In this document: piece by piece, positions 1 to 30,967 of the stretch | Numbering within the stretch: the stretch's first letter is position 1 | Layout: the number at the start of each line of letters is the position of its first letter | DNA from: Prosthecobacter fusiformis | GTDB lineage: Bacteria; Verrucomicrobiota; Verrucomicrobiia; Verrucomicrobiales; Verrucomicrobiaceae | Length of the DNA: 64,000 bases | Direction: 5' to 3' | NCBI RefSeq assembly: GCF_004364345.1 | Contig: NZ_SOCA01000004.1 | Span: 62,001 to 126,000 of the forward strand | The notes under the pieces: generated by a model | What the model was told of the DNA's origin: nothing | Databases searched by the model: none | Seen by the model: only the letters and a program-made list of their open reading frames with translations | Program-made: the position numbers and the translations under genes

Positions 1-732
1 GCCAGCAAGTTCAATGAAACGGTGGCCCTGACTGGCCTCATTATGACCAAGCTGGATGGTGATGCCCGTGGGGGTTCCCTGCTTTCCATGCGCCAGGTCA
101 CTGGCTGCCCTGTTAAGTTCATCGGTGTGGGTGAAAAGGTGGACCAGCTTGAGGTCTTCCACCCTGACCGGATGGCCCAGCGGATTCTCGGCATGGGTGA
201 CGTCGTCAGCCTAGTGGAAAAAGCCGCGCAGGAGATCGATGAAAAAGAAGCCATGGGCATGATGCGCCGCATGGAGGAGAACAAGTTCGACTTCACTGAC
301 TTCCTCGGCCAGCTTCGTTTCATGAAAAAGCTGGGGCCGCTGGAGGGCCTGCTGGGTATGATTCCTGGCATGAACAAGCTCAAAGGCATGCCGGGTGTGG
401 ATGACAATCGCATGAAGCATGTGGAAGCGATCATCCTTTCCATGACGCCGAAGGAGCGGTCCAAGCCGGACATCATCAACGGCAGCCGACGCAAGCGTAT
501 CTCCAAAGGTTGTGGCCGTCCTGTGGTGGAGATCAACCAGCTTCTCAAGCAGTTCGAAATGATGCGTAGCCTCATGAAGAACAAAGGTGCGATGGCGCAG
601 ATGGCCGGCGGTCTCTTTGGCGGTGGTGGAGGCATGGGGGGCGGTATGCCGCAGATGCCCAAAGGCATGTTCCCTGGTGGAAAAATGCCGAAAATGGGCA
701 AGTCGAAAAAAGGTTTCCGTCTCGGCGGCTAG
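1..732 (+). CDS. ffh: Signal recognition particle protein Ffh, C-terminal part (5' truncated by window)
   Basis: This is the signal recognition particle GTPase, which binds 4.5S RNA and nascent signal peptides and delivers ribosomes to the membrane. The reading frame is open from base 1, so the first part of the gene lies outside the window; 243 residues are visible. They start in the G domain with the TKLDGDARGG guanine-binding motif. The methionine-rich M domain follows, with the RNA-binding helix carrying SRRKRISKGCGRPV near residue 155 (Cys stands where Ser is more usual) and the NQLLKQF motif. The C-terminal tail is rich in Gly and Met, as is common in Ffh. Identity is clear. Confidence 0.96.
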   Translation, partial: ASKFNETVALTGLIMTKLDGDARGGSLLSMRQVTGCPVKFIGVGEKVDQLEVFHPDRMAQRILGMGDVVSLVEKAAQEIDEKEAMGMMRRMEENKFDFTDFLGQLRFMKKLGPLEGLLGMIPGMNKLKGMPGVDDNRMKHVEAIILSMTPKERSKPDIINGSRRKRISKGCGRPVVEINQLLKQFEMMRSLMKNKGAMAQMAGGLFGGGGGMGGGMPQMPKGMFPGGKMPKMGKSKKGFRLGG

Positions 733-18193: not shown

Positions 18194-19495
18194 TTAGCCA
18201 AACAGTGCGGTGATCGGCTGTCCTTTGTCGGCAATGGTGAAGGGCCTCTTGGTTGGCGAATACAGGACCTGGTCCAAAGGCAGGCCGAGCGCATAACCGA
18301 TGGTCGCATTGAGGTCTGGCGGGGAAACTTTGTTCTCGGTCACCTCAATGCCCTTGTCCGTCTTGCCATAGATCTGTCCACCCTGGACGCCGCCGCCCCA
18401 GATGGCGGAGCTGAAGGCTTTCGGATAATGGTCGCGACCAGAGTTCTGGTTGATTTCAGGCGTGCGGCCGAATTCGCTGGTGATGACCACCATGGTATCC
18501 TGCAACAGGCCGCGGCGTTCCAGATCACCCAGCAGTGCTCCGAGGGCCTTGTCCAGCTCGCTGATCTTTTCAGGCAGGCGGGCATAGATGTCATTGTGCA
18601 TGTCCCAGCCACCATTAGTGACCTCAATGAAACGCACTCCATGCTCGATCAGGCGGCGGGCCAAGAGGCAGCCTTGGGCGAAGCTGCCGGTACCGTATTC
18701 TGCCTGCAACTCTTCAGGTTCCTGGGACAGATCGAAAGCGGTGAGGTCAGCGCTTTTCATGACCTTGACGGCATCCTTGTAAACATCGCTGTAGGCACGC
18801 ACGGCGCTGTGGCCATAAGTTTCTTCGAAGCCAGCATTGAGCTTGGCGGAAAGATTGAGGCGGTAGTCGAGATCGTTTTCCCCCAGCGTAGCCAGGCGCT
18901 TGCTGTGCTGCAAGCCGGTGCTAGGATTGCTGAGCAGAAGCGGCTGGAAGGAAGCTTCAAAAAAACCACCGCCAGGATGCTTACTGTCATTGGAAATGAC
19001 CACCGTGCCGGGCAGGTCTGGATTGCCCTTGCCCTGGAATTTTTGTAACCATGCACCCATCGTCGGATGGCGGGTGGCCCCGCGCATGGTGTAGCCCGTG
19101 TGCTGGTAATAGTTCCCTTGCTCATGTGCCCCCTGGGTGCTGGAGAGACTGTTGATGACCACGCCGTGGTGCATGAACTTCGCCACGGTGGGCAGACCTT
19201 CACCCAGTTGCACTCCGTCCGCACTGGTAGGGATGCACTTCGTATCACCCATGGTATCTGCACCGGGGCTGACGCCGAAGGTGTCCAGATGGGTCATGCC
19301 GCCGGCCATGTAGAGATAGATAACATTGCGCGCGGTGGGCACCTGACGCGCTTTGGAACTGCCCTCAAAGGCCACGGCCATTGCCTGGCCGTGCATGAGT
19401 GGCTGCATGACGGAGACACCAAGGCAGGTCTTGGCGATGTTCATGACAAAGTCACGACGGGTGGGCTCTTCAGCGCGGAGGAAAGAAGGATTCAT
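18194..19495 (-). CDS. DUF1501 domain protein (twin-Arg-like leader)
   Basis: A 433-residue DUF1501 protein, a family of the alkaline phosphatase/sulfatase-like fold that is greatly expanded in Planctomycetes and Verrucomicrobia. The N-terminus has TRRDFVMNIAKTCLGVS, resembling a twin-arginine signal. Conserved blocks include YLYMAGGMTHLDTFG, MGAWLQKFQGKGNPDLPG, VTNGGWDMH and VITSEFGRTPEINQNSGRDH. Such genes nearly always pair with a DUF1549/DUF1553 gene, here 45 bases upstream in the same direction, so the two form one unit. The biochemical function is not established. Confidence 0.92.
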   Translation of the reverse strand: MNPSFLRAEEPTRRDFVMNIAKTCLGVSVMQPLMHGQAMAVAFEGSSKARQVPTARNVIYLYMAGGMTHLDTFGVSPGADTMGDTKCIPTSADGVQLGEGLPTVAKFMHHGVVINSLSSTQGAHEQGNYYQHTGYTMRGATRHPTMGAWLQKFQGKGNPDLPGTVVISNDSKHPGGGFFEASFQPLLLSNPSTGLQHSKRLATLGENDLDYRLNLSAKLNAGFEETYGHSAVRAYSDVYKDAVKVMKSADLTAFDLSQEPEELQAEYGTGSFAQGCLLARRLIEHGVRFIEVTNGGWDMHNDIYARLPEKISELDKALGALLGDLERRGLLQDTMVVITSEFGRTPEINQNSGRDHYPKAFSSAIWGGGVQGGQIYGKTDKGIEVTENKVSPPDLNATIGYALGLPLDQVLYSPTKRPFTIADKGQPITALFG

Positions 19496-19540
19496 GGCAG
19501 GCTGGAATGAAGGGTGGCGTGGTGAAAGACCGTGCAGGGA

Positions 19541-21706
19541 TTATTGGATGAAGAGGAATTGTGATCCGGTGATGAGGGCGTGCGTCACATCCTCCACGGC
19601 TATGTCACCCCGCTCCTGGATAACCTGGGAAAGCACGGCACGTTCATTGTTGGTCGGGCGACGACTCAACAGAGCCTCGTATAAGAGGGCCACTTTTTCA
19701 TCAGCACTGCCAGCATCTTTCAGTTGCTGGCTGAGCAGCGAGACCGGGCTGGTCAGGCTTTTGATGACGGGGCCATTTAGCAGAGTCAGTGCCTGCGGGA
19801 CGGAGGCGTCCTCACTTGCGTTATCGATCACCTCGCGGTCAGACTGGCCAAAGGTGCGCAGGAAGTGGCCGGGCCGGGCAGGGGAGGGTAGCTCGGAAGC
19901 GCGGGACACCATGGTCCTGTCCCCTTCGTTGCGGCTCAGCGCCTTGCGCTCCTCCTTAGTCAGTGTGGCCATGACCTCGCGGCTCATCTTGGGCCGCTTT
20001 TTTGCTTCTTTGTTGGCTTCCTTGTTCGGGCTGTAGCCTCGGATGAGGTCTTCAGCGCGCTCTTCACCGATGAGGTTTTCCAGCAAGTTATTGCTGGATT
20101 CTCGGCGCAGCTTATTGGCTGCATTGGCCAGGGCTTTGGCATCCGCTGGATTGGCCACGCCGTCTTTTTGTTCGGCCATCTTGGCGCGCATCTCATCCAG
20201 CTTGCGGTCGTTTTCTTTCCGTTCTTCCATTCCCGCTTTGGCTGCTGCCACGATGCCTTCAGGGCCTTTTTCTTTCATCGTGGTGATGAACATGTTTAGA
20301 TCGTTCAGATACTGGTGCAGGCGCTGGTTTTCTTCGTCCACTTCGCCATCCACATTGCCTTTGGTGAGCGTGATCATGGAGTCCCAGACCTGTTCGGCAC
20401 TCATGCGGCGCAGGGAAGGGCCGGTGAAGTGATTGATCTCTCCCAGGGCCACTTCCTGCGTGCTGGCCATGCGCTGGTAGGTGTCGGTATTGTAAAGCAC
20501 GCGCAGGAAGGATTTGAGCGAGTATTTTTTCTCGATCATCAACTGCGCCAGGTAATCCATCAGCGCTGGATTGCTGGGGACTGTGGAGTCGGTGATTTCG
20601 TCCAGAGGTTCGATCACACCCGTGCCGAACACGTGTTTCCACATGCGGTTGGCGATGACTGTGGTGAAACGTGGATTTTCCGGATCGGTCATCCAGTCGG
20701 CAAAGGCCTGTACCGTGGTCTGACCTTCTTTCGGCGTGGCCTCATGACCAAACATGGCGTTAGGCTGGATAGTATCTCCGGGCTTGGCGTCTGTATAAGC
20801 GTAGTCGGCTGGCAGCTTGGGCAGCTTACCTTCTTGCCAGGAGACGGCGGTGTAGCGGAGCGGTTTCATCACGTCTCCCAGAGCTTTTCTTACCTGGTTC
20901 ATTTCCTCGCTGGTGGCTTTGCCTTTCTCGGCAGCTTCTGCGCGAATTTTTGCCATCTCTTCAGGATGATCCTTCATGTATTGGCGGCGGTCTTTGGCCT
21001 TCATGCTGGTGATGAATTCCGGCAGATTCTTGTTTTGAGGGGGACGCCTTGGCAGCTTGATGTCGGTGATGCCGCTGCCACGTGTGTCCATACCATAAGT
21101 GAAGGCAGCCATGCCGTAATAGTCCTTCTGGCTCCACTTATCGAAGGGGTGGTTATGGCACTGGGCACACACGATGCTGGTGCCCAAAAAGACCTGAACG
21201 GTGTAGGCCAGGTGATCCAGCTTGTTCTCATCCCGCTGGTAAAAGCCAATGCTGCCGCTGTCCCATGCACCGCCTTCGGTGGTGAGGAGCTTTTTCACAA
21301 ACTGGTCATAGGGCGTATTGGCCTTCAGCTCTTTCTTCAGCCATTCCTCATAGGCCTCAGCCGTGATCCTGCCTTTCGTATTGTCCGTCAGGCGTAATAC
21401 ATCGGCCCAAAAGTTGAACATGTGGCTGGTATAACCATCACTGCCCAACAGCTTATCGATCAGTTTAGCACGCTTCTGCGGATCCCCTGATTGAATGAAT
21501 TCACGCGATTCTTCCACGGTCGGGATGCGGCCTGCGATGTCGAGATACAGACGCCGGACGATCACCTCATCCGGTGCGGCGGCATTGGGCTGAAGATTGT
21601 GCTTTTGCCAGTCCGCAGCGAGCAGACTGTCAATCTTGGCGGCCTCGGGCAAAGCAGCGCCGTGGGTGACGGTGGCGACCAGCAGGAGAAGGGCGAATGT
21701 TTTCAT
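19541..21706 (-). CDS. DUF1549/DUF1553 domain protein (planctomycete-type cytochrome-associated)
   Basis: A 721-residue exported protein. The signal peptide MKTFALLLLVATVTHGAA is followed by the DUF1549 domain (RRLYLDIAGRIPTVEESREF, KLIDKLLGSDGYTSHMFNFW). A haem-type motif C180-A-Q-C-H184 follows in CAQCHNHPFDKW, and then the DUF1553 domain (NPRFTTVIANRMWKHVFGTG, IEPLDEITDSTVPSNP, YSLKSFLRVLYNTDTYQR). The central 150 residues are Lys/Glu-rich and probably helical. The frame opens earlier at 21865, but this start gives a clean signal peptide. It is cotranscribed with the DUF1501 gene; a role in polymer degradation with electron transfer has been suggested for such pairs. Confidence 0.92.
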   Translation of the reverse strand: MKTFALLLLVATVTHGAALPEAAKIDSLLAADWQKHNLQPNAAAPDEVIVRRLYLDIAGRIPTVEESREFIQSGDPQKRAKLIDKLLGSDGYTSHMFNFWADVLRLTDNTKGRITAEAYEEWLKKELKANTPYDQFVKKLLTTEGGAWDSGSIGFYQRDENKLDHLAYTVQVFLGTSIVCAQCHNHPFDKWSQKDYYGMAAFTYGMDTRGSGITDIKLPRRPPQNKNLPEFITSMKAKDRRQYMKDHPEEMAKIRAEAAEKGKATSEEMNQVRKALGDVMKPLRYTAVSWQEGKLPKLPADYAYTDAKPGDTIQPNAMFGHEATPKEGQTTVQAFADWMTDPENPRFTTVIANRMWKHVFGTGVIEPLDEITDSTVPSNPALMDYLAQLMIEKKYSLKSFLRVLYNTDTYQRMASTQEVALGEINHFTGPSLRRMSAEQVWDSMITLTKGNVDGEVDEENQRLHQYLNDLNMFITTMKEKGPEGIVAAAKAGMEERKENDRKLDEMRAKMAEQKDGVANPADAKALANAANKLRRESSNNLLENLIGEERAEDLIRGYSPNKEANKEAKKRPKMSREVMATLTKEERKALSRNEGDRTMVSRASELPSPARPGHFLRTFGQSDREVIDNASEDASVPQALTLLNGPVIKSLTSPVSLLSQQLKDAGSADEKVALLYEALLSRRPTNNERAVLSQVIQERGDIAVEDVTHALITGSQFLFIQ

Positions 21707-21765
21707 AGCGTGAAGGCAGGCTTCGGTCTGACGGCGCTGAAACGTGAAGATTCGGTGTTTCTTCA

Positions 21766-21885
21766 TTTTATACCTAAAAAAAGTCAAAAAGGCTGCCTGA
21801 CTTATTATCAGCGCAGCCGTTTTTAAGAGGTATAAAATCCCTCCATACTTTACGCTCCCCGCCACCCCGAAGCTCTTTTATACCT
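21766..21885. repeat. Three copies of a 10-base motif, TTTTATACCT, in alternating orientation
   Basis: TTTTATACCT occurs at 21766-21775 and 21876-21885, and its exact complement AGGTATAAAA at 21828-21837. The three copies flank the terminator hairpin of the giant gene and lie just upstream of the DUF1549/1553 gene. They could be binding sites for a regulator or arms of alternative hairpins. Confidence 0.5.
21774..21818 (-). terminator. Rho-independent terminator of the giant surface protein gene
   Basis: Read on the minus strand, GGCTGC (complement of 21813-21818) pairs with GCAGCC (complement of 21791-21796) around a 16-base AT-rich loop. TTTTTGAC and a further run of T follow. It lies about 100 bases past the stop of the 2339-residue protein. 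Confidence 0.65.
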
Positions 21886-21921: not shown

Positions 21922-24900
21922 TCAAGGGAGCTTGAACAGCACTTCTCCGCTGACGGTCTCAACTCCCCCAGGTGTGGCGGGGATCACGAAGTTCCCGTCG
22001 CCGATGAGCTGGACATCGTTTCCTGCGGGTTGCCTGAGCACACCGCTGATGATCGCCACACGCTTCACGCCCGCATCCATGAGCTCGAAGCTGCCGGTGA
22101 AGGTGCCGTTTGTCGTGTTGAGTGTCGTTTTCCATTTCGTCAGGTTGTTAATGCCTGGGACTACGAAGACGTTGCGGGAGCTGAGCGTCATGGTGGTGGG
22201 CAAGCTCGCATGGGAGGTGCTGCCTGTCGCGCTGTGAAGCACCACGAAGGTGTCGCCCGTCAGGCCCAGGAGACTTGTCAGCGGCAGGGTGGCCGTGGGT
22301 TTCACCCAGGGATCCAGCGTCAAGCCTATGGTTAAGGGGACGAAGCCAAGCGGGTAGCTTTTGTCCGTCGGCCACGGGGCCTTGGCCCAGACGAGCGAGG
22401 GTTCCGTCACCAAGAAGCGCTGGCTGTTGAGCGAGTTTGGCTGCATCTCAAAGGTGCCGCTCAAGAAGGTCTCCACCCGCGCAGGTTTGTAAGGCTGCAC
22501 CCAGAGCCGGTAGCTGGGCGTCTCTTCCTGACTCGGGAGGACGGAGGTGGTGAAGGCGGTGCCATCTCCCAGCTTGCCAACGAGGGCGATAGCCCCCCGA
22601 GTGCTGACCGTAGCCCGTGCCCAGCCTGCCCCGCGTGGCACCCCAACAACCAGTGGCTGTGCGGGCTCCAGCACGCCTGTGTAGGCACCGCTGAAGTTCA
22701 CCTTCGCGCCGCTGGGCAGCAGCAGCAGACGCTGGCCATCCGGGAAGGTGGCAAGAGGCTGGCTGTTTTTTGTCAGGGTACCCGTCAGCTCGCCCTTCAA
22801 CGTGAGGGTGAAGCTCACTGCATAGGTTGCGCCTTGGCTGAGCACCGTCGCTGCGCCCGTCGAGCGCTCGGTGAGGAAGTTTGTTATCAGCGCACCTGAG
22901 AGCCGCAGGGTGGAGGTTTCCCCCGCTAGGGCCATCGTGCCTGAAAAGGTCTTGCCGGACGAGGCCACCGTCAGGCTGAGTTTGCCTGAGGGGAGGTTTC
23001 CTCCATCTGCCAGAAGCGCCTCATAGCCAGCCGCAAAGCCCTCCACCACGAGCGTGCCTTGGCGGTAGATCAGGGTGTAATTGGCCGCCAGCCCGCTCTT
23101 GGCGGTGATGGGATACGTGCCGCCGACGCTGGTCACCTTGGCGCTCGTCGAGAGCGTGGGCACTTTGGTCAGCACGGCTGAGGTATCGCTCCCCACAAAG
23201 CCCTCATACACTAGGTCTAGCAGGGGATTGATTTCTCCTGAGAGCTTTCGTTTGTCCTGCGGCACCACGTAGAGTGGGGCTTGGGTGATGACGAGCGTGC
23301 CTTTTTTAGTCACTCCACCGGCAACCGCCACCACGGCATAACGCCCGGCGGCCGTGGGGGGTGTCGTGCGAAAGACGCCTCCTACTTGATAGGTCACGGT
23401 CACGGGGCTTGTGGTGCCTACGGACCCGATGGCCTTCGGCGTGCCATTGTAGCGCTGGCTCAGCCCGGTAAGAGTGAGCACCGTGGGATTTGCCTTCACC
23501 GTGATCACGCGCGTCACGATTTTTGCGGCCGCGTAGTTCCCACCGCCCACCTGCGTCGCCCGGACGGTCACCTGACCCACACCTGTCGGTGTTAAGATCG
23601 ACCCCGCGAGTGTCGCAGGTCCTAAGAGCTGCAGGAGCACGGGTAAGCCTGAGCTTGCCTCGGCGGTCAGCGTCAGGGGCCCCTGCCCGAGATAATGCGT
23701 GGCCGGGGCGTTGAAGACGATTGTTTGCGCCAGTGACCGGCTCAAGGTGCCAAACCCGCTCACTGCAAAGGTTAATGGATTGAGGTCAGGGTTATTGCTG
23801 GCAATGCTCAATGTGGCTGTGCGCAGGCCTGGCAGGCTGGGATCAAAAGTGATCGCAAAAGTCGTGGACTGCCCCACAGCGATGGAGCTGGAGGGTAGAG
23901 CCGTCACTTTAAAATCCGCCGCATCACCGCCCAGGATCTGCACGGCGGGGGTGCCGGTCAGAACGAAGGCGGCGGTGCCATTGTTTTGGATGGTGAAGGT
24001 GCGCGTCACCTGAGCATTGAGGAGGCTGACGGAGCCAAAGGCTGTGAGATCCTCCAAGGAAGGGGAAGTCTCTCCATTGTCGATGATGATGCCATTGCCG
24101 ATGACTAGGACAGTGGGGGTCCAGTAGGTGAAAAGGCTGTTCGCGATATTGCTGCCGCTCGGGGTGGTGACAATCACACTCACGGTGCCTGCGGCCCGGG
24201 CCGGGGTGGTGGCGGTGATCTGGGTGGGGCTGTTCACGATGAAGCTGGCACTGATGCCATTAAAAGTGACTGATGTGGCGCCAGTGAAGTTGGTGCCAGT
24301 GAGGGTCACCTGGGTGCCGCCTACCGTTGTGCCGGTGGCGGGGGTGACGAGGGTGATGGTCACCTCCTGGGCCTCGGTGGCAAGAATGGCCAGCGTGGTC
24401 ACCCCTGTGTTTGTCGCAGTCGCCACGCCTGTCAGGGTGGTCGCGGCATTGATCGCTGCCTGGGCATTGGCCAAGGCGAGCTGAAGGGCCGCCCATTCTT
24501 CAGGCGTAAAGTTTGCTTCCTGATAGGTCGCTGCCACCGCCGCCAGGTTGGCCAGCGCCGCCGCCACGGCCGCAGCAAGCGTTTCTGCACTCGTCGGCAC
24601 CGCGTCCAGCGCCGCCAGAGCCGCGCTTGTCGCAGCCGCCACACCTGCCGGATTGGTCGCGGCAATGATCGCTGCCTGGGCATTGGCCAGGGCGAGCTGG
24701 AGCGCCTCCCATTCTTCAGAGGTGAAGTTTGATTCCTGATAGGTCGCTGCCAGGGCCGCCAAGTTGGCCAGCGCGGTGGCTTTAACCACCGCCAGCGTTT
24801 CGGCAATCGCCGCCAGCGCCGTGTTCGTGGCCGTGGCCACGTCTGTCAGATTGGTCGCGGCAAGGATCGCTGCCTGGGCATTGGCCAGGGCGAGCTGCAG

Positions 24901-27900
24901 GGCTGCCCATTCCGCAGGGGTAAAGTTTGCTTCCTGATAGGTCGCTGCCACCGCCGCCAAGCTGGCCAGCGCCGCCTCCTGGGCCGCTGCCAGGGTTTCG
25001 GCATTCGTCTGCACCACATCTAGCGCCGTCAGCGCTGCGCTCGTCGCCAGCGCCACACTTGCCGCATTGGTCGCGGCAAGGATCGCTGCCTGGGCATTGG
25101 CCAGGGCGAGTTGCAGGGCTTCCCATTCCTCAGACGTGAAGTTTGATTCCTGATAGGTCGCTGCCAGTGCCGCCAGGTTGGCCAGCGCCGCCGCCTTGAC
25201 CGCCGCCAGCGTTTCTTCGGCAATCGTCGGCACCGCATTCATCGCCGCCAGCGCCGCGCTCGTCGCCAGTGCCACACCTGCCGGATCGGTCGCGGCATTG
25301 ATCGCTGCCTGGCCAGTCGTTTGGGCGAGGATCAGGGCCGTCCAGCTCTCAACAGTGTAGTTTGCCTCCAGATAGGTCGCCAGTGCCGTCGTCAGGTTTT
25401 CCTGCGCTAGTGTCTGAGTCGTGACCAGCGTCTCGGAAAACGTCGGCACTGTGTCCATGGCCGTCAGAGCCTCATCCCTCGCCGTCGTTACGCTGGCCGC
25501 ATCAGTGGCTGCGTTGACCGCTGCGCTACCAGTCGCCCTGGCGGCGATCAGCGCCAGCAAGTTTTCGGAGGTGTAGTTGTTGGCTCCAAGGTAGGTTGTA
25601 AACGCCGTTGTCAGGTCGTTGAGCGCCGCCGCCCTGACCGTAGCAAGGGTCTCGTTGATAACCGGTACCGCATCCAATGCTTCCAGCGCCTCGTTGGTCG
25701 CCGCTGCCACACCTGCCAGATCCGTCGCGGCATTGATCGCTGCTTGGCCATTTGCAATGGCGGTTTGCAACGCCATCCAGTTCTCAGAAGTGTAGCTCGC
25801 CTCCAGATAGGTCTCTACCACTAGCTCAAAGTCGTTCAGTGCTGCTGCCTTGACCACTGCCAGCGTTCCGGTAATCGTGGGCACCGCAGCCATCGCCGCC
25901 AGCGCTGTGGTTGCCGCCGTCGCTACGCCTGCCGAATCAATGGCCTGATTGATCTCTAAACTACCTGTCGCCCTCGCGGTGATCAGCGCTAGCAAGTTTT
26001 CGGCGGTGTAGTCGTTGTCTTCCAGATGGGTCACAAACGCCGTTGTCAGGGCGTTTAGCGCCGTCGCCCTGGCCAGCTCCATGTCCCCGTTGATGACCGG
26101 CACCGCGTCCATCGTGGCCAGCGCTGTATTGATCGCCGTTGCCAAGTCTGCCAGATTCGTCGCGGCATTGATCGCTGCCTGGCCATTCGCAATGGCGGTT
26201 TGAAGAGTCGTCCAGTTCTCGGTGGTGTAGTTCCCCACCACATAGGTCGCTACCACTGCGTCTAAGTCGTTCAGCGCGGCCACCTTGGCCCCGGCCAGCG
26301 TCACAGTAAGGGTGGGGACCGCAGCCATGGCCTCCAGCGCGGTGGTTGCCGCCGTCGCCACGCCTGCTGGATCAGTGGCCGCGTTGATCGCTGCACTGCC
26401 TGCCGTCCTGGCGGCGATTAGCGCCGTCCAGCTTTCGAAGGTGTAATAGTTGGCTTCCAGATAGGTCGCCAGCGCCGTTGACAGGGCGCTCAGCGCCGCT
26501 GCCCTGGCCGTTGCCATGCTCTCGGTGAAGGTCGGCACCGCGTCCAACGTGGCCAGCGCTAGGTTTGTCGCCGTCACCACGCCTGCCAAATTCGTTGCCT
26601 CATTGATCGCGGTTTGGCCATTCTCATTGGCGGCTTGAACAACCGTCCAGTTCTCGGATGTGTAGTTGGCTTGCAGATAGGTCACTACCACCAGCGCAAA
26701 GTCGCCCAGCGCTGCCGTCTTGGCCGCAGCCAGCGTCCCGGCCACCGTGGGTACCGCAGTCATCGCCGCCAGTGCCGCGCTCCTCGCCGTCGCCACGCCT
26801 GCCAGATTGGCGGCTGCCTGGATCGCCGTGTCACCGTTCGTCTTGGCGGTTGTCAGTGTCGTCCAGTTCTCGGGAGTGTAGTTTACTTCCGGATAGGCCG
26901 CCAGCGCCGTCGTCAGGTCAGTTTTCGCCGCCACTTTGGCCTCCGCCAGTGTATCGGGCACTGTGGGCACCGCGTCCATTGCCGCCAGAGCTGCGGCCTT
27001 TGCTGCAGCCACGCCAGCAGGATCAGTCGCCGCGTTGATCGCGGTGTCGCCATCCGTCTTGGCATCGAGCAGGGCCGTCCAGTTCTCGGAGGTGTAGGGG
27101 TTCGCTAACAGATAGGCCTGCCGCGTCGCCGTTAGTTCGTTCCTCGCCGCCGTCTTGACCGCCGGCAGGGTCTCGGCCAGCCCGAGGTCCACACCGAGGT
27201 GGGTGGTGCCGCCCAAAACCACAAATTCCGTAGAATCGACATAACCGCCGACGTCACCGGACTCGCTATTGCTGTCCAGCGTATCATCTTCACCCTGATT
27301 GGGGTCGGTGACGCGGTAATCGGTGGTGAAGTTAGTCAGATCCCAGCGGACGAATAATGTGCCCGGCTGCACCCCTTCAAATAAATAGTTCCCGCCGACA
27401 TCGGTGACGGTGGTAGCCACTACAATGGGGTCTGGAAATCCGACGGGGGGAGCTCCTGTGACTGCTGAAACCGTCGTGGCTAAGGCGATGGTGCCTGCAG
27501 CTTTGCCTGCCATTGCCCGGCCGCTGATGTTGGTCGTCACACCAAAGGTGATCGCCGCGCCGCCGAGGATGTTTCCCCTCATGTGAGTGCCTGCCCCCAG
27601 AGAAACAGCCCCTTCCACGATCCAATAAACATTCGCGCTTTTAGCATTGTTGGCCAAAATCACATTCCCTGTTGCCGCCGTCGTGCCAAACGCGCCGACG
27701 ATTTGGATGATGAAGACAGCCTCAGCATCACCTTCGGCATCAAGAGTGACTGAAGAGGCCAAAGTCGCCGCCGCGCCGATTTTATAAACACCGGGCTTTA
27801 AGGTCTTTCCGCCCAGCTCAAAGGCAGCGGCAGATAAGAGCTCATCCGGTGTTCGATTTTTGCCATCATTGTAAGCGGTCTCAAAATCGGCCAGAGCCGT

Positions 27901-28941
27901 CATGACCGCTGCATGACCCGTGGCGTAAACGGTTCCTGTCGAAGTGATCCCTGCGGCGATGGCACCCGTGCCCGACCCCACATTGCCAGTCACATTGGCT
28001 GATCCAGAAATGGCCGCACCTGCCAGGGCTCCGAAATTAGCTGCCGTTCCAAGTTCAAGGGTCTTTTTTTCCAACACAAGCTGCATCAGGGAAACTGGAA
28101 TGTTAGAGAACCCGGCGGTTTCAGACGGATCTTGAATGCCATTGACGTTCGAATCGAACCAGACCCGGTCGCCCACGACCGAAGGATCCACCGGTACGTT
28201 AATTGCAGTGGCCATGGCGATGGTGCCGGCAGTCGCGCCGGCCAGAAGACGCCCGTTGACGGTGGTGGTCGCACCAAAGGTGACCGCAGCATTTCCGAGG
28301 ATATTTCCCTCCATTTTGATACTGGCCCCCATGGAAACGGCCCCTTCCACGATCCAAAAAATATTCGCGCTTTGCGCATCGTTCGCCAAAATCACATTCC
28401 CCACGGATGCTGTTGCACTGAATGCTGCTCCGATTTGGATGATGAAAACAGCGTCAGGGTCTCCTTGGGCATCCAGAGTAACCGGGGAGCCCAAAGTCGC
28501 CGCCGCGCCGATTTTATGGACACCGGGCGTTAAAGTCTTTCCGCCCAGCTCAAAAGCTGCTGCTGACAATATAGAATCAGGCGCTCGATTTTTAGCCTCA
28601 GCGTAAGCCGTGGCCACATCGGTCAAAGCTGTTGTGACAACCGCATCACCAGTGGGGTAAATGGTTCCTGTCGAGGTGATCGCCGGGGCGATGGCACCCG
28701 ATCCTGACCCCACATTTCCTTTGACCTGACCTGTCCCCGAGATCGCCGCACCTGCCAGAGCTCCGAAATTCTTAGCTGTTCCCAGATTGACAGGCACCGC
28801 ATTGGCCGCCCACAACGTTCCGCCAGGGAGCGCCACAGTCATTGCCAAGATGATGCATCGGAACAAGTGGCGCATTTTAGCGCACACTTGCGAACCGAAT
28901 GTTTGAATCGAATGACCATCTCGTATTTTGGAAGCTTCCAT
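21922..28941 (-). CDS. Giant exported surface protein: two ice-binding-like domains, split SdrD_B-like domain, 13 repeats, Ig-like domains
   Basis: A 2339-residue exported protein. The leader ends near residue 46; an alternative start at 28875 gives MRHLFRCIILAMTVALPGG. Domains in order: DUF3494 ice-binding-like (about 52-247); the first half of an SdrD_B-like domain (257-288, GDRVWFDSNVNGIQDPSE); a second DUF3494 domain (about 293-492); the second half of the SdrD_B-like domain (505-589, VTDVGGNYLFEGVQPG); thirteen FIVAR-like repeats of 72 residues (591-1526); an IPT/TIG domain (1527-1607); a choice-of-anchor-D-like domain (about 1608-1735); MBG-like Ig domains (about 1815-1965); and a C-terminal beta-rich region. 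No LPXTG, PEP-CTERM or autotransporter barrel is seen. It probably mediates adhesion or matrix binding; ice binding is only one role of DUF3494. Confidence 0.88.
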   Translation of the reverse strand: MEASKIRDGHSIQTFGSQVCAKMRHLFRCIILAMTVALPGGTLWAANAVPVNLGTAKNFGALAGAAISGTGQVKGNVGSGSGAIAPAITSTGTIYPTGDAVVTTALTDVATAYAEAKNRAPDSILSAAAFELGGKTLTPGVHKIGAAATLGSPVTLDAQGDPDAVFIIQIGAAFSATASVGNVILANDAQSANIFWIVEGAVSMGASIKMEGNILGNAAVTFGATTTVNGRLLAGATAGTIAMATAINVPVDPSVVGDRVWFDSNVNGIQDPSETAGFSNIPVSLMQLVLEKKTLELGTAANFGALAGAAISGSANVTGNVGSGTGAIAAGITSTGTVYATGHAAVMTALADFETAYNDGKNRTPDELLSAAAFELGGKTLKPGVYKIGAAATLASSVTLDAEGDAEAVFIIQIVGAFGTTAATGNVILANNAKSANVYWIVEGAVSLGAGTHMRGNILGGAAITFGVTTNISGRAMAGKAAGTIALATTVSAVTGAPPVGFPDPIVVATTVTDVGGNYLFEGVQPGTLFVRWDLTNFTTDYRVTDPNQGEDDTLDSNSESGDVGGYVDSTEFVVLGGTTHLGVDLGLAETLPAVKTAARNELTATRQAYLLANPYTSENWTALLDAKTDGDTAINAATDPAGVAAAKAAALAAMDAVPTVPDTLAEAKVAAKTDLTTALAAYPEVNYTPENWTTLTTAKTNGDTAIQAAANLAGVATARSAALAAMTAVPTVAGTLAAAKTAALGDFALVVVTYLQANYTSENWTVVQAANENGQTAINEATNLAGVVTATNLALATLDAVPTFTESMATARAAALSALSTALATYLEANYYTFESWTALIAARTAGSAAINAATDPAGVATAATTALEAMAAVPTLTVTLAGAKVAALNDLDAVVATYVVGNYTTENWTTLQTAIANGQAAINAATNLADLATAINTALATMDAVPVINGDMELARATALNALTTAFVTHLEDNDYTAENLLALITARATGSLEINQAIDSAGVATAATTALAAMAAVPTITGTLAVVKAAALNDFELVVETYLEASYTSENWMALQTAIANGQAAINAATDLAGVAAATNEALEALDAVPVINETLATVRAAALNDLTTAFTTYLGANNYTSENLLALIAARATGSAAVNAATDAASVTTARDEALTAMDTVPTFSETLVTTQTLAQENLTTALATYLEANYTVESWTALILAQTTGQAAINAATDPAGVALATSAALAAMNAVPTIAEETLAAVKAAALANLAALAATYQESNFTSEEWEALQLALANAQAAILAATNAASVALATSAALTALDVVQTNAETLAAAQEAALASLAAVAATYQEANFTPAEWAALQLALANAQAAILAATNLTDVATATNTALAAIAETLAVVKATALANLAALAATYQESNFTSEEWEALQLALANAQAAIIAATNPAGVAAATSAALAALDAVPTSAETLAAAVAAALANLAAVAATYQEANFTPEEWAALQLALANAQAAINAATTLTGVATATNTGVTTLAILATEAQEVTITLVTPATGTTVGGTQVTLTGTNFTGATSVTFNGISASFIVNSPTQITATTPARAAGTVSVIVTTPSGSNIANSLFTYWTPTVLVIGNGIIIDNGETSPSLEDLTAFGSVSLLNAQVTRTFTIQNNGTAAFVLTGTPAVQILGGDAADFKVTALPSSSIAVGQSTTFAITFDPSLPGLRTATLSIASNNPDLNPLTFAVSGFGTLSRSLAQTIVFNAPATHYLGQGPLTLTAEASSGLPVLLQLLGPATLAGSILTPTGVGQVTVRATQVGGGNYAAAKIVTRVITVKANPTVLTLTGLSQRYNGTPKAIGSVGTTSPVTVTYQVGGVFRTTPPTAAGRYAVVAVAGGVTKKGTLVITQAPLYVVPQDKRKLSGEINPLLDLVYEGFVGSDTSAVLTKVPTLSTSAKVTSVGGTYPITAKSGLAANYTLIYRQGTLVVEGFAAGYEALLADGGNLPSGKLSLTVASSGKTFSGTMALAGETSTLRLSGALITNFLTERSTGAATVLSQGATYAVSFTLTLKGELTGTLTKNSQPLATFPDGQRLLLLPSGAKVNFSGAYTGVLEPAQPLVVGVPRGAGWARATVSTRGAIALVGKLGDGTAFTTSVLPSQEETPSYRLWVQPYKPARVETFLSGTFEMQPNSLNSQRFLVTEPSLVWAKAPWPTDKSYPLGFVPLTIGLTLDPWVKPTATLPLTSLLGLTGDTFVVLHSATGSTSHASLPTTMTLSSRNVFVVPGINNLTKWKTTLNTTNGTFTGSFELMDAGVKRVAIISGVLRQPAGNDVQLIGDGNFVIPATPGGVETVSGEVLFKLP
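24364..27171 (-). repeat. Thirteen tandem 216-bp coding repeats (72 residues each)
   Basis: Each unit encodes a pattern TLAxAKxAALxxL, then ATYxEANYTxENWTAL, GQAAINAATDxAGV and ALAAMDAVPT, which looks like a three-helix FIVAR-type module. Units 10-13 (24364 to about 25230) are nearly identical to one another, with shared DNA strings recurring 216 bases apart, while units 1-9 are more diverged. Unit 11 is six residues shorter, giving a 198-base step. Confidence 0.85.
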
Positions 28942-29518: not shown

Positions 29519-30967
29519 ATGAAACTGACGCGCCTCCTTCCCGCCCTGCTGGGCCTGTTCACTTTGAGCCTCTCCGCCGCTGAAAAGCCGGACGTGCTCT
29601 TCATCGCCGTCGATGATCTCAATGACTGGGTAGGCCATTTGAAGGGCCATCCCCAGGCCAGGACACCGAACATTGACCGCCTGGTCGCCCGTGGCACCAC
29701 CTTCACCAATGCCCACTGCGCAGCGCCTGCTTGCAATCCTTCCCGTGCGGCCCTGATGAGCGGCTTGCGTCCCTGGCAGACCGGCATCTACACAAATGAC
29801 GATCCTGCAGGAGGCGTGATGAAGGACACCCTCACCCTCAACCGCCACTTCCTGGCCCAAGGCTACAACACCCAGGGGGGTGGCAAGATCTATCACGGCG
29901 GTCCCAGCGAAGGCCGCGAGGATACCTGGACAAAATGGATGGGTCTGTTTGACGGGACTAAAAACCATGAGGGCAACATGAACGGCCTCAACAACGGCCA
30001 TTTCGACTGGGGTCCGCTGGACTCAAAGACGGAGGAGATGGGCGACTATAAACTCACCGACTGGGCCATCAACGAACTCAAAACCGCTCCCACAGACAAA
30101 CCCCTTTTTCTGGCCGTCGGTTATGTGAAACCACACCTTCCATGGTATGTCCCGAAGGAGTACTTTGACCGTTTCCCCCTGGACAGCATCCAGCTTCCGC
30201 TGGTCAAAGAAGATGACATTGATGACCTCCCGAAAGCAGGCCTGAACATGGCCAAACCCGCTGGCGACCACGCTGCTGTGATCAAGGCGAACCAGTGGAA
30301 GCAGGCCGTGCAGGCTTACCTCGCCACCATCTCCTTTCTGGATGACCAGGTGGGCCGTCTGCTGGACGGACTGGACGCCAGCCCGCGCAAGGACAAGACC
30401 ATCATCGTCTGGTGGACCGACCATGGCTGGGCCCTGGGTGAAAAACAGCATTGGCGTAAGTTTGCCCTTTGGGAGGAAACCACCCGCACCTCCTGCGCCA
30501 TCGTCGTTCCTGGCATGACCCAGCCGGGCAGCGTTTGTGCAGCCCCGGTGGACTATTTGAACATCTATCCCACCCTGTGTGAAGTGACCGGTCTTCCCCT
30601 GCCTGAGCATGTGAAAGGTGCCAGCCTCGTCCCCTTGCTCAAGGACCCGAAAGCCGCCTGGGACCACGTCGCCATCTGCAGCCATGGCCGGGGTAACCAT
30701 GCCGTCCGCGATGCGCAGTGGCGCTACATCCGTTATGCCGATGGCAGCGAGGAGCTCTACGACCATACCAAGGACCCAAATGAATGGACCAACCTGGCCG
30801 GTGAAGTGGGCATGAGCGACATCAAGACCAAGCTCGCCACCTCACTTCCCGCTGCTGATTCCGAAGTCCCCGCAGTCGCTAAGAAAAAAGAAGGCAAAAA
30901 AGGCAAAGGGGACGGAAAGAACAAAGGTAAAAAGAAGAAGGCTGACAAGAAAAAGACCGAGGAATAA
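29519..30967 (+). CDS. Exported sulfatase (type I, Cys-type) with Lys-rich tail
   Basis: A 482-residue sulfatase of the iduronate-2-sulfatase-like group. A signal peptide (MKLTRLLPALLGLFTLSLSA) is followed by the metal-binding VDDLNDW. The active-site signature is C72-N-P-S-R (Cys to be converted to formylglycine), matching CxPSR, and WWTDHGWALGEKQHWRK carries the second metal and substrate residues. It should hydrolyse sulfate esters on an exported or external glycan. The last 28 residues are almost all Lys, Gly and Glu, an unusual basic tail. No maturation enzyme gene is in the window. It converges on kdpE. Confidence 0.93.
   Translation: MKLTRLLPALLGLFTLSLSAAEKPDVLFIAVDDLNDWVGHLKGHPQARTPNIDRLVARGTTFTNAHCAAPACNPSRAALMSGLRPWQTGIYTNDDPAGGVMKDTLTLNRHFLAQGYNTQGGGKIYHGGPSEGREDTWTKWMGLFDGTKNHEGNMNGLNNGHFDWGPLDSKTEEMGDYKLTDWAINELKTAPTDKPLFLAVGYVKPHLPWYVPKEYFDRFPLDSIQLPLVKEDDIDDLPKAGLNMAKPAGDHAAVIKANQWKQAVQAYLATISFLDDQVGRLLDGLDASPRKDKTIIVWWTDHGWALGEKQHWRKFALWEETTRTSCAIVVPGMTQPGSVCAAPVDYLNIYPTLCEVTGLPLPEHVKGASLVPLLKDPKAAWDHVAICSHGRGNHAVRDAQWRYIRYADGSEELYDHTKDPNEWTNLAGEVGMSDIKTKLATSLPAADSEVPAVAKKKEGKKGKGDGKNKGKKKKADKKKTEE

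Follow-up and report, generated by a model that had tools for sequence, protein, structure and literature searches.

The window, a stretch of 64,000 nucleotides from Prosthecobacter fusiformis, encodes on its reverse strand a multidomain protein of 2339 residues (21922-28941, ATG start) in which a complete DUF3494 domain is lodged in one loop of an SdrD_B domain. This DUF3494-in-SdrD_B layout is real; other bacterial adhesins already provide examples of similar insertions into loops. As for function, the protein is read here, with a probability of roughly 0.6, as a secreted fibrillar adhesin-like protein having a two-headed tip and a stalk of variable length.

Domain organization and predicted fold

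Pfam analysis of the whole 2339-residue protein returns two stretches each of Ice_binding (PF11999) and SdrD_B (PF17210), with no anchor domain among the matches. All features lie on the reverse strand. The N-terminal region (28804-28941) carries a signal-peptide-like hydrophobic stretch (LFRCIILAMTVALPGGTLWA), recognized by reading of the sequences. It is followed by the first DUF3494 domain (d1, 28207-28794, residues ~50-245), the N half of SdrD_B (28078-28179, residues ~255-288), the second, nested DUF3494 domain (d2, 27466-28065, residues ~293-492), and the C half of SdrD_B (27172-27429, residues ~505-590). Scored as separate pieces, d1 (28200-28815) and d2 (27465-28077) reach 131.7 and 127 bits, well past the Ice_binding cut-off of 28.7 bits. 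The N half (28077-28191, profile 3-32) and the C half (27166-27471, profile 38-91) reach 33.1 and 38.2 bits, each exceeding by itself the curated SdrD_B cut-off of 29.7 bits. A genome-wide profile search divides the domain in the same way (profile 3-33 and 38-90), with ~210 residues interposed between profile positions 33 and 38. Alignment with un-nested SdrD_B domains, the whole ones being drawn from viral contigs, places the insertion in a single loop, after the VSLM(Q) strand and before VVATTVTD. Chance or an assembly artefact is rejected, since the halves pass the cut-off singly and separate assemblies share the layout.

The preliminary description had proposed a split SdrD_B domain flanking a complete second DUF3494 domain at 27175-28176. 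The separate scores of halves and insert bear this out, and the coordinates are correct within a few bases (the SdrD_B region, residues ~255-590, spans 28179-27172). It had also placed the first DUF3494 domain upstream as a homologue of the inserted one, in agreement with the 69% identity between d1 and d2 and with the clade they share. EF-hand-like calcium loops are a feature of SdrD B repeats, and the N half contains a candidate for one (DSNVNGIQDPSE, 28120-28155, residues 263-274); the sequence pattern is conserved in 12 of the 13 family members, window included, L068 being the exception.

Behind the split domain come 13 matches to a ~72-residue repeat (24367-27096, residues ~616-1525, found by repeat search), then the Pfam matches to a TIG domain (24124-24360, residues 1528-1606), a HYDIN-like Ig domain that is weak and under its curated cut-off (23770-24048, residues 1632-1724), and an MBG_2 domain (23050-23271, residues 1891-1964). 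DUF1542 is the only Pfam match past its cut-off in the repeat stretch. The repeats, which may resemble FIVAR repeats, probably form a stalk that would be helical. Twelve other proteins hold 0-6 such matches; fragments are counted among the twelve, five of which run off their contigs. In L103, Big_3_5 domains stand in place of the repeats.

The relatives' N-termini, when compared by sequence, are similar to the N-terminal region of the window protein. In L099, L101, and L102 a long N-terminal region precedes the hydrophobic signal stretch, as in the window (28804-28941), and a DDDSI-like motif recurs there in several relatives; this long region might be an extended signal peptide. Neighbouring genes at 18194-21865 and 29519-30967 encode a DUF1501 protein, a DUF1549/DUF1553 protein, and a sulfatase. 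The P. fusiformis genome holds three Ice_binding matches, two of them d1 and d2, and 62 SdrD_B matches (E <= 0.01), two of them the halves described here. It also has a 7896-residue frame (G000:C2:307792-326997), most of whose 43 SdrD_B matches lie in tandem. SdrD_B-like repeats with longer loops near the position equivalent to the d2 insertion are observed in L223, from a viral contig.

Two structural models were computed. The first (AlphaFold, 541 residues, 12 close sequences, no un-nested SdrD_B rows), the only one to include d1, is poor (pLDDT 49.7), its C half being unfolded at ~23-33; Foldseek still detected DUF3494 in it. The second covers 347 residues and derives from an alignment (A13) of 11 nested proteins and six un-nested SdrD_B rows, which was picked by eye after inspection and is thereby biased toward the expected packing. 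Other mixed alignments (A6, A7, A10, A11, and A12) were discarded for misplaced un-nested SdrD_B rows or half-rows. Overall confidence of the second model is modest (mean pLDDT 61.4, pTM 0.47). By ten-residue blocks, the N half (model residues 11-40) reaches pLDDT 85, 73, and 88, and the C half (261-347) reaches 66-86. The blocks of d2 span 30-76, with 31-45 over its first ~50 residues, 42-76 over model residues 101-240, and 30-41 just ahead of the C half.

VIA-align superposes this second model on SdrD (8vdk) with a Z of 16.9 at 1.9 Å over 115 residues (model 6..347, chain 324..438). Since the C half can supply no more than ~88 residues, at least ~27 of the 115 aligned residues come from elsewhere, in practice from the N half. 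Model residues 48..254 match DUF3494 structures, whose fold is an irregular β-solenoid with a long helix, with Z up to 20.8, parts of d2 being at low pLDDT. The prediction thus brings the SdrD_B halves together in a single SdrD B-type sandwich and gives d2 a DUF3494 fold of its own. The structure prediction proposed in the preliminary description has accordingly been run, and the outcome that would have spoken against nesting, two flanking halves that fail to form one sandwich, did not occur. Given that the alignment was hand-picked and contained un-nested rows, the packing supports the nest but is not independent proof; it is partly owed to those rows, because the model built without them left the C half unfolded.

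Relatives and history of the nested layout

The search for the same nesting in other proteins, also suggested in the preliminary description, finds the layout, whole or partial, in 13 further proteins, L068 (genome G366) and L097-L108. Most belong to genomes of Verrucomicrobiota or the "PVC group"; three are from gammaproteobacterial MAGs. Both SdrD_B halves and the insert are visible in 11 of the 14 proteins, window included. L102 leaves its contig within the C half, and L105 and L106 leave theirs inside d2. The N half of L100 falls under the local profile threshold (E 0.085, scored as its duplicate L118) yet is present in the alignment, and the local matches of L101 overlap (profile 3-46 and 41-113). 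L108 (G628:C22) has a stop within the matched stretch and adjoins another DUF3494 frame; it may be a copy in decay, or the assembly may be at fault.

Twelve of the 15 loci from one homologue search have the nest layout, and three do not. Full-length matches occur in at least 3 of 387 genomes of the phylum. Within the order, at least 7 of 288 genomes match at E <= 1e-40, at least six of them full-length. Both counts include the P. fusiformis genome and are lower bounds, the best few candidates per genome having been scored. L100 is encoded in genome G449, and in the family of that genome three of 43 genomes match, one of the matches being ended by its contig.

Among the loci examined, many of which end ~1.5 kb from the match, neither a nest without a preceding d1 nor a DUF3494 frame with an intact SdrD_B was found. 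The preliminary description had taken the layout for a duplication of DUF3494 into a loop of its neighbour. Nesting and homology agree with this, whereas an event private to one protein does not stand: the layout is inherited and present in other families and orders of the phylum and in the three gammaproteobacterial MAGs. Copying may have gone either way, from d1 into the loop or from d2 out of it, as the loci examined contain no un-nested ancestor.

A phage origin of the nest finds no support: on viral contigs, 46 stretches fit a pattern and none was confirmed. DUF3494 domains by themselves are encoded at 63 loci (L122-L184) of IMG/VR contigs, many of which exceed 40 kb, with a maximum of 218 kb; these loci are either phage-borne or bacterial contamination.

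L100, L103, and L106 sit in MAGs labelled Gammaproteobacteria, that of L100 (G449) being labelled Wenzhouxiangella. The C-termini of L100 and L103 bear an LFxDRFE-type tail, and five other members a RFYRAF tail. Counted as DNA pattern sites anywhere in the genome, not confined to protein ends, the LFxDRFE type occurs 19, 38, and 25 times in G449, G450, and G451, once in G452, never in G453, seven times in the window's genome, and nine times in G456, with 0-3 sites for reversed-pattern controls. Since this tail pattern is common in G449-G451, it argues for a real transfer of L100 and L103 over mis-binning. The argument covers these two proteins, the end of L106 lying outside its contig.

In a phylogenetic tree, the 25 d1 and d2 rows group together as a single clade (100/99), which a branch of 0.94 sets apart from 10 further DUF3494 rows of the phylum, the nearest outside row being the Chlorobiota row L109; d1 and d2 are mutual closest kin. 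The window d1 clusters with the d1 of L097 and L098, and the window d2 with the d2 of L097, L098, and L068. L099 d1 and d2 are sisters (100/94, and 97/92 in a second tree). At the DNA level they share 90% identity, with third positions 87% alike at identical residues, vs 75% and 55% in the window protein; in L102, d1 and d2 share 86% and an identical run of 53 bases. Judged from these comparisons, the d1/d2 duplication looks old, and a recent homogenisation in L099 is likely. The two trees require 5 or 6 d1/d2 label changes, and the starred branches force at least 3. A single duplication without later exchange is disfavoured by the label changes and the L099 sisters, although a clean d1/d2 split withstands an AU test (p 0.105). 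All four segments, d1, N half, d2, and C half, look to be under purifying selection in the four pairs tested (NG86 dN/dS 0.12-0.38).

Function and ligand of the two-headed protein

The domain order, known from sequence, would fit a fibrillar adhesin, with a stalk of repeats and adhesive domains at its tip. In such a protein, d1 would be the N-terminal head, and the SdrD_B domain just behind it the first stalk module, bearing the second head d2 in one of its loops. Both heads would be near each other at the tip of a stalk whose repeat number differs between species. A pulling force would run through the SdrD_B sandwich and past d2, because d2 is tethered via a loop, an expectation from topology alone. 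Secretion, surface display, head proximity, and force bypass are features that we infer. The lack of an anchor domain among the Pfam matches counts against this reading; the C-terminal part of the protein carries no domain assignment. A more elaborate scheme makes this a mobile, cross-phylum, two-headed tip, with an ice-binding-type head copied into a loop of its own stalk domain and force-shielded there, the outer and nested heads overwriting each other by gene conversion. It is offered tentatively and is more doubtful than the adhesin reading itself.

The ligand of the heads bears on two competing explanations. The best PDB sequence match for both d1 and d2 is IBPv (5uyt), a two-domain antifreeze protein in which an Ala/Gly row of domain B matters for antifreeze activity, by mutation (PMC5673226, in the parts covered). 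At positions aligned by hand to this row, of which the first of five is probably one residue out of register, Ala or Gly fills 58 of 60 cells in d1 and 50 of 55 ungapped cells in d2. In 78 other DUF3494 rows, Thr and Ser predominate at the same positions, and Ala does so at the last one; one second-row column of this comparison consists entirely of gaps. TxT motifs average 2.6 per domain in 25 nested-family domains vs 7.0 in 68 viral-contig DUF3494 domains, and Thr content is 11.9% vs 16.5%. The likeness of the small-residue row to that of IBPv makes ice or another ordered surface a possible ligand. An ice role is weakened, however, because TxT motifs and Thr are scarcer than in other DUF3494 domains, and a non-ice ligand seems about as likely.

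These data would suit a secreted two-domain ice-binding (antifreeze) protein, whose nesting just fixes the spacing of the domains and whose remaining length does not serve attachment. The kinship with IBPv and the small residues along the ice-site row favour it, but up to 13 repeats, a TIG, and an MBG_2 domain are unexpected in a plain antifreeze protein, and the reduced TxT motifs and Thr also weigh against it, so that it is considered improbable. Heads that bind a non-ice target (a polysaccharide, a mineral, or another cell), with DUF3494 as a generic adhesive β-solenoid, are a stronger candidate, at somewhat under even odds; this explanation overlaps the adhesin reading, which leaves the ligand free. 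It draws on the Thr-poor composition of the nested family and on its mostly Ala residues where the 78 other rows show mostly Thr, Ser, or Ala. On the other hand, most of the solved DUF3494 chains among the matches bear the name of an ice-binding or antifreeze protein, and IBPv domain B functions with an Ala/Gly row (same source, likewise in part).

The split SdrD_B could also be a non-functional relic of a recombination accident, as the stop in L108 (G628) might suggest. This is very improbable, given that the split recurs across other families and orders, that dN/dS is 0.12-0.38 on both halves in four pairs, that the EF-hand-like loop is preserved in 12 of 13 members, and that the halves are predicted to pack. 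The adhesin reading is retained here as the main one.

Comparison with known systems and implications

IBPv likewise carries two homologous DUF3494 domains per chain and a small-residue row at the ice site. Its domains, in contrast, are consecutive (residues 23-229 and 230-445), and no nesting is described in the parts of PMC5673226 covered. The B-type domains of SdrD and UafA (8vdk, 10ps, 4jdz, and 3irp) share the fold of the outer domain, but their aligned stretch is contiguous (8vdk 324..438, 115 residues). CnaA- and CnaB-like folds accept domain insertions in their loops, usually isopeptide or adhesion domains, according to the covered parts of a survey of isopeptide domains (PMC12617251). 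The pilins RrgA and Spy0125 resemble the present protein in having a large domain within a β-sandwich loop of a surface adhesin; the inserts named for them, however, belong to the CnaB, vWFA, and thioester types rather than to DUF3494 (PMC12617251, same parts). Folds of the RrgA/Spy0125 type, moreover, carry isopeptide bonds. MpIBP of Marinomonas primoryensis is an RTX adhesin with a different ice-binding fold, and we know of no nesting in it. It is similar in its extreme length, of which a single region binds ice (PMC5014055, in the parts covered).

In Arctic metagenomes, DUF3494 occurs as single, double, and triple domains, and also together with DUF4842, a PEP C-terminal domain, DUF11, and others; neither "SdrD" nor "nested" appears in the main text of that study (PMC9957290). 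Within the open-licence PMC literature, nothing was found that treats DUF3494 together with SdrD, though wider print may differ. There, in the parts covered, ice-binding protein and SdrD_B co-occur only incidentally (a different protein, a reference title), and no report of ice binding in Prosthecobacter was found. DUF3494 and adhesins do co-occur in that literature.

Because CnaA/CnaB-like stalk folds are already known with domain insertions, the nest is a variant of a known insertion type. For annotation, a domain listing that reads "Ice_binding, SdrD_B, Ice_binding, SdrD_B" may conceal one split domain. The natural pairs of similar heads, one in-line and one nested, would allow a direct measurement of force shielding and two-headed binding. 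With this family, DUF3494 joins the domains found inserted into the loops of adhesin stalks, here in Gram-negative bacteria.
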